A stretch of 64,000 nucleotides of DNA from Prevotella sp. MA2016 (GTDB lineage Bacteria; Bacteroidota; Bacteroidia; Bacteroidales; Bacteroidaceae). Below, one piece after another: positions 41,155 through 43,489 of the stretch. The position numbers were made by a program, and so were the translations under genes. Numbering within the stretch: position 1 is the first letter of the stretch; each line of letters begins with the position of its first letter. Location: positions 434,001-498,000 of the forward strand of contig NZ_JHUW01000006.1 in assembly GCF_000619825.1 (NCBI RefSeq), read 5' to 3'. Under the pieces are notes generated by a model. That model did not search any database, was not told where the DNA came from, and worked only from the letters and a program-made list of their open reading frames with translations.

Positions 41155-42045
41155 ATGAAAACGATACTTACGATAACAGGTAGCGACGGCACAGGTGGTT
41201 CGGGTGTACAGGCCGACATCCGACTTATCAGTGCACTGGGTGGTGTGGCCGCATCAGCCATTACGTCGATCACCGTGCAGAACACCCTGGGTATTCAGGA
41301 GTTCCACGACCTGCCTGCATCAGTAGTACGTCAACAGGTTGAGGCTATCATCAACGACCTGCAGCCACAAATCGTCAAGATAGGTCTGCTGCGCCGTATC
41401 GATGTGGTGGATATGCTGGCCGATGTGTTGAAGCGCTATAAGCCTTGTCATATCATCTATGCCCCCGTGCTCACTTCTACCCGTGGCGAGCAGCTGGTAG
41501 AGCCCCGTGTCTATGAGGCTATCCAGCGCCTGATTATCCCCCTGTGCACCATTGTGCTGGCACCTACCGACCTGCCTATCGGACCGCGTCGTCATGGTGC
41601 AGCCAACCAGCTTGGTTCTGCGCTGGCCTATTATCTCAGTCTCGACGAGAAGGTGAGTGATGCCATGCTGCATGCACAGACCTATCTGAAGCAGTTGCCT
41701 GCCGACTATGCCGATGGTAACACGCGCAGCGAAGAGCTCTACAATCAGTTTCTTGATGCTGTGGAGCACTATTACAACCGCTATGCCGATGTGGCTTTCT
41801 ATGCCGAGCAGCTCAACGTCAGTGCGCGTTATCTGGCTCAGGTCACCCGACAGATAGCCGGTCGTTCGCCAAAGGCCATCATCGATGAGCGCATCACCAC
41901 AGAGATTGTGAAGCTTATCACTACCACCAATAAACCGCTGAAAGACGTGGCCCAGTCGCTGGGTTTCTCCTCGCAAGCCCATCTGTCGCGCTTCTTCAAG
42001 AAGCGAAGAGGGGTTTCTCCTACTGAATTTCAACATAAAAAATAA
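41155..42045 (+). CDS. ThiD/pyridoxal-kinase-like domain fused to an AraC-type DNA-binding domain
   Basis: 296 residues. Residues 1-about 185 are a phosphomethylpyrimidine/pyridoxal kinase fold: ILTITGSDGTGGSGVQAD, SAITSITVQNTLG, IVKIGLLRR. The segment after about residue 140 is shortened by roughly 75 residues against ThiD/PdxK, and the catalytic GTGC loop is replaced (RHGAANQLGSALA), so phosphotransfer is unlikely. Residues about 195-296 are a two-helix-turn-helix AraC domain (FYAEQLNVSARYLAQV, LKDVAQSLGFSSQAHLSRFFKKRRGVSPTEF). It starts the operon with pdxS (8-base gap) and pdxT. I infer a regulator that binds a B6 vitamer or a pyrimidine through the dead kinase pocket and controls PLP synthesis. 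The start at 41155 is set by the promoter. Confidence 0.85.
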   Translation: MKTILTITGSDGTGGSGVQADIRLISALGGVAASAITSITVQNTLGIQEFHDLPASVVRQQVEAIINDLQPQIVKIGLLRRIDVVDMLADVLKRYKPCHIIYAPVLTSTRGEQLVEPRVYEAIQRLIIPLCTIVLAPTDLPIGPRRHGAANQLGSALAYYLSLDEKVSDAMLHAQTYLKQLPADYADGNTRSEELYNQFLDAVEHYYNRYADVAFYAEQLNVSARYLAQVTRQIAGRSPKAIIDERITTEIVKLITTTNKPLKDVAQSLGFSSQAHLSRFFKKRRGVSPTEFQHKK

Positions 42046-42053
42046 TATATAAA

Positions 42054-42929
42054 ATGACAAACGAAAGACAAGCGTTAAACCGCCAGTTAGCTCAGATGCT
42101 GAAGGGTGGTGTTATCATGGACGTGACTACTCCCGAGCAGGCCAAGATAGCCGAAGAGGCTGGTGCCTGCGCAGTAATGGCCCTCGAACGTATCCCTGCC
42201 GACATACGTGCAGCAGGTGGTGTGAGTCGTATGAGCGACCCTAAGATGATACGTGGTATCCAGGAGGCTGTCAGCATCCCAGTGATGGCAAAGTGCCGTA
42301 TCGGTCATATTGCCGAGGCTCAGATTCTGCAGGCTATCGAGATTGACTATATCGATGAGAGTGAGGTGCTCTCGCCTGCCGATAACATCTATCACATCGA
42401 CAAAACCAAGTTTGATGTACCTTTCGTGTGTGGTGCCAAGAACCTGGGTGAGGCCCTGCGCCGTATTGCCGAGGGTGCCACAATGATTCGTACCAAGGGT
42501 GAGCCAGGTACAGGTGATGTGGTACAGGCCGTGAGTCACATGCGCTTGATGCAGAGCGAGATCCGTCGTCTGGTTTCAATGAGCGAGGATGAGCTCTTCG
42601 AGGCTGCCAAGCAGTTGCAGGCCCCTTACGAGCTGGTGAAGTTCGTGCACGAGAATGGCAAACTGCCTGTAGTTAACTTTGCTGCAGGTGGTGTGGCTAC
42701 CCCTGCCGACGCTGCGCTGATGATGCAGTTGGGTGCCGAGGGTGTGTTCGTAGGTAGCGGCATCTTCAAGAGTGGCAACCCAGCCAAGCGTGCTGCCGCC
42801 ATCGTACAGGCTGTGACCAACTATCAGGATGCCAAGTTGCTGGCCGAACTCAGTGAGGATCTTGGTGAGGCTATGGTGGGTATCAACGAGCACGAGATTG
42901 AACTCTTAATGGCCGAGCGCGGTAAATAA
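42054..42929 (+). CDS. pdxS: Pyridoxal 5'-phosphate synthase subunit PdxS
   Basis: 291-residue TIM barrel that builds PLP from ribose-5-P, glyceraldehyde-3-P and ammonia supplied by PdxT. Conserved stretches: MLKGGVIMDVTTPEQAKIAEEAGA, ALERIPADIRAAGGVSRMSDP, MAKCRIGHIAEAQIL, DESEVLSPAD and GEPGTGDVV; the catalytic lysines lie in VMAKCRIGH and in the MIRTKGEPG region. Normal length. Middle gene of the operon. Confidence 0.97.
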   Translation: MTNERQALNRQLAQMLKGGVIMDVTTPEQAKIAEEAGACAVMALERIPADIRAAGGVSRMSDPKMIRGIQEAVSIPVMAKCRIGHIAEAQILQAIEIDYIDESEVLSPADNIYHIDKTKFDVPFVCGAKNLGEALRRIAEGATMIRTKGEPGTGDVVQAVSHMRLMQSEIRRLVSMSEDELFEAAKQLQAPYELVKFVHENGKLPVVNFAAGGVATPADAALMMQLGAEGVFVGSGIFKSGNPAKRAAAIVQAVTNYQDAKLLAELSEDLGEAMVGINEHEIELLMAERGK

Positions 42930-42940
42930 GAATTGAAGTA

Positions 42941-43489
42941 ATGAGAATTGCTGTGTTGGCTCTGCAAGGGGCATTTATAGAGCACGAGCAGGTGCTGCAG
43001 CGCTTAGGTGCTGAGACGGTGGAGATCCGTCAGCTGCGCGACTGGCAGGCTGGTCCCTACGATGCACTGGTACTGCCTGGTGGCGAAAGCACTGTGCAGA
43101 TGCGTCTGCTCAGGGAGCTGGGCTTGCTGGAGCCTATCCGTCAGGCCATTGCCGGCGGTCTGCCCGTGTTGGGCACCTGTGCTGGCATGATTCTGCTCTC
43201 CAATGGTTATCTGGGTACGATGGACATCCGTGTGCGCCGTAACGCCTATGGTCGTCAGTTGGGCAGTTTCCATACTGTGGGTGCTGTTGATGGCATAGGT
43301 ACCGATGTGCCGATGACCTTTATCCGTGCACCATATATCGAAGAGGTGCTGTCGGCCGACTGTCGGGCGATAGCCGAAGTAGATGGCCATATCGTTGCTG
43401 CTCGTCAGGGGCATCAGATTGCCACCGCTTTCCATCCCGAACTCGATGATGACACCCGTCTGCACCAGTTGCTGATATCACTGTGTTGA
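42941..43489 (+). CDS. pdxT: Pyridoxal 5'-phosphate synthase glutaminase subunit PdxT
   Basis: 182-residue class I glutamine amidotransferase delivering ammonia to PdxS. Motifs: VLALQGAFIEHEQVL at the N-terminus, LPGGEST, catalytic Cys in LGTCAGM, and the His-Glu pair in FHPELDDD. Starts 11 bases after pdxS; followed by hairpins that end the operon. Confidence 0.96.
   Translation: MRIAVLALQGAFIEHEQVLQRLGAETVEIRQLRDWQAGPYDALVLPGGESTVQMRLLRELGLLEPIRQAIAGGLPVLGTCAGMILLSNGYLGTMDIRVRRNAYGRQLGSFHTVGAVDGIGTDVPMTFIRAPYIEEVLSADCRAIAEVDGHIVAARQGHQIATAFHPELDDDTRLHQLLISLC

Follow-up and report, generated by a model that had tools for sequence, protein, structure and literature searches.

In Corynebacterium glutamicum and other bacteria, the apo-form of the regulator PdxR activates the pyridoxal 5'-phosphate (PLP) synthase genes pdxST and PLP counteracts the activation, according to the accessible part of the source (PMC5320631), and the regulators of vitamin B6 synthesis named in the available portions of the literature are of the MocR type. 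Control of pdxST by PdxR, sensor regulators derived from enzymes (ThiR) and the common AraC regulators are all already known. Here we describe a gene of Prevotella sp. MA2016, lying in a stretch of 64,000 nucleotides (contig NZ_JHUW01000006.1, positions 434,001 to 498,000; the whole stretch is called the window), that joins the remains of a ThiD-type vitamin kinase to an AraC-type DNA-binding domain and stands immediately before pdxS and pdxT. We consider it probable that the fusion protein is a transcription activator of pdxST with a dead kinase pocket predicted to sense a B6 vitamer, PLP being the most probable. A search of the open-licence literature gave no report of an AraC-type regulator derived from an inactive vitamin kinase and encoded next to pdxST.

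Gene architecture and linkage to pdxS

The preliminary description of the locus had a 296-codon gene with a ThiD-type N-terminus and a complete AraC C-terminus, ending 8 bases before pdxS, and both the reading frame and the Pfam matches bear this out. The coding features are as follows:

41155..42045, + strand: fusion gene, 296 codons from ATG to stop; kinase-derived predicted sensor and AraC DNA-binding domain
41155..41559, + strand: residues 1-135, ThiD-type kinase first half with the pocket (Pfam, PDB alignments, conservation)
41590..41694, + strand: residues 146-180, catalytic loop remnant (RHGAAN for THGTGC) and the helices behind it (alignments)
41800..42033, + strand: residues 216-293, AraC-type two-helix-turn-helix domain (HTH_18 and structure model)
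42054..42929, + strand: pdxS, PLP synthase lyase subunit (Pfam SOR_SNZ, E 4.9e-108)
42941..43489, + strand: pdxT, PLP synthase glutaminase subunit (Pfam SNO, E 2.7e-47)

The kinase domain is incomplete, its best Pfam stretch (Phos_pyr_kin, residues 11-134, E 6e-39) covering positions 1-123 of the 246 in the profile. The C-terminus matches HTH_18 over residues 216-293 (profile positions 1-78 of 80, 68 bits vs a cut-off of 33.6, E 8.7e-19) and HTH_AraC (52.9 bits vs 26.6), and the helices of the two-helix-turn-helix domain are present in the predicted structure model; a separate fold made without an alignment had a pLDDT of 41 and was discarded. Pfam gave no AraC_binding or cupin match in the protein and, up to E 1, no GntR-type helix-turn-helix or aminotransferase-like domain. 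Chance neighbouring genes were ruled out by the single reading frame and the numerous homologues: 2,850 were found at E <= 0.001, both Pfam domains were present in all 120 of the best listed, and the nearest named relatives, with 84-93% identity, belong to Xylanibacter ruminicola and rumen Prevotella.

The preliminary description had staked the regulator's role on homologues not lying mostly away from pdxST, and they do not: pdxS was present in 77 of 80 fusion loci, at most 229 nt after the fusion gene in 73 of them and 0.75-3.3 kb away in four. The three loci lacking it are at a contig end (L023) or belong to Xylanibacter brevis (L032) and a Prevotella metagenome-assembled genome (L033), and the last two genomes carry pdxS on a separate contig. 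Among 251 genomes of the window's family, we counted the fusion in 28 (E <= 1e-45) and pdxS in 46; all 28 were among the 46, with the two genes on the same contig and within 3.5 kb (Fisher 2.6e-25, uncorrected for kinship), and diverged fusions under this threshold are possible in the genomes that lack pdxS. The remaining 18 pdxS genomes included nine with a diverged fusion in the pdxS neighbourhood and two with such a fusion 4.5 and 5.8 kb off. One genome (G490) had two fusion genes on two contigs, each adjoining its own pdxS. At 44250-45107 of the window, 760 bases past pdxT, there is also an AraC-family regulator of the ordinary kind, whose AraC_binding match is weak.

The promoter element

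Ahead of the fusion gene, we identified a conserved element and a promoter box:

41078..41121, + strand: conserved 44-bp element, predicted operator, TTTCCAAATTGCAGTTTTTTTTATCATTGTGGGAATAATATTTG; best site of the locus with a 45-site matrix
41142..41149, + strand: -7-like promoter box TTCCTTTG; distance from the -33-like TTTG 28 bases

The last four bases of the element (41118-41121, TTTG) are the -33-like box, and we take both box types to be those of the Bacteroidales promoter. The matrix was built from 45 sites picked by pattern upstream of the fusion gene and used to scan 81 loci on both strands, with the site of a seed locus and its near-copies (<=4 differences) excluded when that locus was scored. 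Of the 81 loci, 57 had their best site upstream of the fusion gene and 22 upstream of pdxS. In 20 of these 22, the element lies in a gap of 119-156 nt between the two genes; in the other two (L059 and L061) the genes are separated by 3.3 kb and the best site is the one before pdxS. Two loci (L055 and L056) had sites at both genes. The last two of the 81 loci were L032 and L033, and in these genomes the best site was upstream of the pdxS on the distant contig, with 39.8 and 47.8 bits. As the best site is found at pdxS in 22 loci and at a pdxS on another contig in 2 genomes, the element goes with the transcript of pdxS and not with the gene of the regulator. In a further 16 loci, of which 14 carry a diverged fusion or a second one and the other two are those of the distant pdxS genes, the best site was upstream of one of the genes in 13 cases.

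The distance from the -33-like TTTG to the -7-like box was 28 bases (86 sites) or 29 bases (5 sites) in all 91 scored sites, contributed by 79 loci of the main set of 81 and by 12 of the further 16 (L095, L123, L128 and L133, with no or a weak site, were left out); among several boxes 18-36 bases away the one nearest to 28 was taken, and the background rate of such a box was 0.00065 per position in the scored loci. The layout fits a Bacteroidales promoter with a predicted activator site abutting the -33 box. The element pattern occurs once in the window, with 0 expected, and once in the whole genome when up to 3 mismatches are allowed, and because of this single site we propose no wider regulon.

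A strong hairpin followed by U (41058-41102, -18.4 kcal/mol, z -5.3) is likely the terminator of the upstream gene; the predicted operator overlaps it with its first half, and a single stretch may serve both uses. Rfam at gathering scores gave no known RNA element in 40900-43700. In one genome (G487; L156 and L166) with the fusion 4.5 kb from pdxS, an element-like stretch was seen by eye upstream of pdxS, possibly a third case of the element staying with that gene. Two long fusions beside pdxS, L123 and L133, lacked the 44-bp element in the scan, and inspection by eye found no clear copy upstream of eight others (L149-L153, L155, L157 and L158).

Catalytic loop, pocket and length of the kinase part

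The fusion protein aligns to solved ThiD chains over residues 3-135 and again over 146-180. In the alignment to chain 7r8y, its P129 pairs with P151 and its H147 with H228, and approximately 59 ThiD residues have no counterpart, a figure that replaces the earlier estimate of about 75 missing residues. The earlier claim of an altered catalytic loop holds: RHGAANQLGSALA of the fusion is aligned to THGTGCTLSAAIA of ThiD and Asn151 occupies the position of the catalytic Cys. We computed the conservation of this site from 360 homologues, the best 120 from each of three database searches, all but one of which contain the AraC domain (the exception, P0243, has 220 residues). The catalytic position was N in 238, G in 117, S in 4 and T in 1, and none of the 360 listed homologues had Cys or Asp there. 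Elsewhere the pocket was kept, with D21 found in all 360, Q42 in 357, T40 in 356 and G9 in 350, and H147 and G148 were likewise present in all 360. Across the 81 proteins encoded in the window and at the 80 genome loci, the residues G9, S16, D21, T40, Q42, H147, G148 and N151 were invariant. From ThiD structures, we take G9, S16, D21, T40 and Q42 to be substrate contacts.

The best NCBIfam match of the kinase piece is TIGR00097, for which the window's fusion scored 120.3 bits and the long fusions L133 and L123 scored 171.7 and 192.8, all under the cut-off of 204.95, while the intact ThiD of the same genome scored 258.6. On these sequence grounds, the fusion is predicted to lack kinase activity. 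The source databases mostly name such proteins (bifunctional) hydroxymethylpyrimidine/phosphomethylpyrimidine kinase, although one, P0331, is called a helix-turn-helix protein; the catalytic loop of the fusions does not support the kinase name. The genome also appears to have no need of the fusion as a kinase, since it encodes elsewhere the intact ThiD (250 residues, LHGTGC), adjoining reading frames that by eye resemble thiH and thiE, and a PdxK-like kinase of 270 residues; we infer that the fusion is dispensable in that role.

The relatives range in length from 359-368 residues, with an almost full-length dead kinase, down to 296. The distance from P129 to H147, which is 62 and 78 residues in two ThiD kinases, was 80 and 76 in the fusions of genomes G471 and G018; others of the 65 fusions compared have 51, 39, 32, 26 or 19, and the rest 13-18. 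It is 17 in the window and spans 13 to 110 residues over this set and the 360 listed homologues together. The two long fusions, those of G471 and G018, cover positions 1-237 and 1-240 of the 254 in TIGR00097, under its cut-off, and are already without the catalytic Cys, having HGLSG and HGVGG at the loop. Some members have therefore lost the catalytic residue but retain the second half. Of two trees made for the order of losses, one had good support at 8 inner branches of 26 and the other at 3 of 18, with the deep forks not among them; shortening may have happened once or several times, and lengths alone are reported. We tentatively suggest, as a history with a little under an even chance of being right, a Bacteroidales lineage of transcription factors in which a hydroxymethylpyrimidine (HMP)- or pyridoxal-type kinase was first deprived of its catalytic residue and later, in stages, of its second half, while the pocket was kept and became the PLP sensor of a factor driving the PLP synthase genes, with all stages extant. 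At the level of the order, 5 of 295 sampled genomes matched at E <= 1e-32, three with full-length fusions and two with plain ThiD. A sample of the phylum searched with the long fusion L133 gave 0 of 296 at E <= 1e-50, a search without positive control from which nothing is claimed.

Proposed control of pdxST

Under the proposed mechanism, the protein would bind the 44-bp element upstream of the pdxST promoter. It would act as an activator, as the element abuts the -33-like box at fixed spacing. When PLP is short, the apo-protein would activate pdxST and with PLP bound it would be switched off, by analogy to PdxR of C. glutamicum. PLP is the most economical candidate for the ligand, since the conserved partner genes make it. 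The role as a pdxST regulator given in the preliminary description is well supported by comparative genomics: pdxS is present at 77 of the 80 loci, and the conserved promoter element accompanies it even when the regulator gene sits on another contig. The kinase is dead by sequence, and its pocket is kept.

The nature of the ligand could differ. The same regulator might sense HMP or HMP phosphate and tie B6 synthesis to thiamine metabolism, in agreement with the ThiD-like character of the kinase piece and with Gln42, which we take to be an HMP-type residue holding the aminopyrimidine. The conserved partner genes, however, are pdxS and pdxT, and a solved ancestor named as common to the HMPPK and PLK/HMPPK kinases bears the same QNT motif, so that Gln42 is compatible with a pyridoxal ring and undiagnostic of the ligand. 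Since Gln42 would suit HMP no less than a B6 ring, our choice of PLP is inferred, and we regard an HMP sensor as unlikely, if still the strongest of the competing explanations. It is less probable again that the kinase piece is a mere dimerisation scaffold with no small ligand or with another signal: the variable shortening between P129 and H147 indicates that the architecture tolerates loss, but D21, Q42, T40 and G9 have remained almost invariant despite the shrinkage elsewhere.

Slightly below this we place a repressor of pdxST or control of the fusion's own gene only. The best site precedes the regulator gene in 57 of the 81 loci and AraC members can repress. The site is nevertheless upstream of the -33-like box and does not cover the start, and own-gene control alone is insufficient given the element at pdxS, and not at the regulator gene, in 22 loci and at the other-contig pdxS of 2 genomes. 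A working HMP or pyridoxal kinase with a regulatory tail would agree with the names given by the sources and with the almost full-length kinase domain of some relatives. We rejected it as highly improbable, the catalytic residue being gone in all 360 listed homologues and the TIGR00097 scores falling under a cut-off that the intact ThiD exceeds.

Several observations weigh against an activator that answers to PLP. Besides the HMP-type Gln42, seven of the 46 pdxS genomes have a ThiD-like match only and no fusion, and G018 carries two fusions approximately 56 kb apart on one contig, L133 with 359 residues, divergent from pdxS, and L095 with 304 residues and no pdxS adjoining or nearby. The loci are related by descent and their counts non-independent. 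The best site of L095, L123 and L133 is elsewhere and that of L128 is weak (7.5 bits); the long fusions, diverged and without the element, may use a different operator. An internal repeat of the element has its best shift at 21 bp, near the spacing of the direct-repeat half-sites in AraC/XylS operators (about 21 bp), but 239 of 5,000 column permutations reached it and it is suggestive at most. Finally, a hint from expression is ambiguous. In the accessible part of a study of Prevotella bivia in a three-species biofilm, the 39 changed genes include pdxT (3.43-fold), pdxS (3.03) and PREBIDRAFT_RS05120 (2.68-fold), annotated as bifunctional hydroxymethylpyrimidine kinase/phosphomethylpyrimidine kinase (PMC11410844). 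The last could be a fusion, as fusions get such names, or a true ThiD.

If the proposed activator is real, it would provide a regulator of B6 synthesis for common rumen and gut bacteria and correct the database name of bifunctional HMP kinase on proteins unable by sequence to be such kinases, a correction that matters for automated reconstruction of the B1 and B6 pathways. Because relatives of intermediate length survive, the change from enzyme to sensor would be open to direct experiment.

Among known systems, the fusion resembles the AraC/XylS regulators in its complete C-terminal two-helix-turn-helix domain and in having its predicted site immediately before the promoter box, an arrangement shared by many AraC activators, but its N-terminus is a kinase remnant in place of an AraC_binding or cupin domain. 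With ThiD (TIGR00097, PF08543) it shares the kinase first half, the pocket residues and the fold, whereas it lacks the approximately 59 residues and the catalytic Cys and has gained a DNA-binding domain. Like PdxR of the MocR type, as the accessible part of the source describes that regulator (PMC5320631), it likely controls pdxST in answer to PLP, although PdxR combines a GntR-type helix-turn-helix with an aminotransferase fold. ThiR of archaea, judged by title, is likewise a regulator with a domain related to a vitamin-pathway enzyme, but it is kin to thiamine phosphate synthase and acts on thiamine genes.
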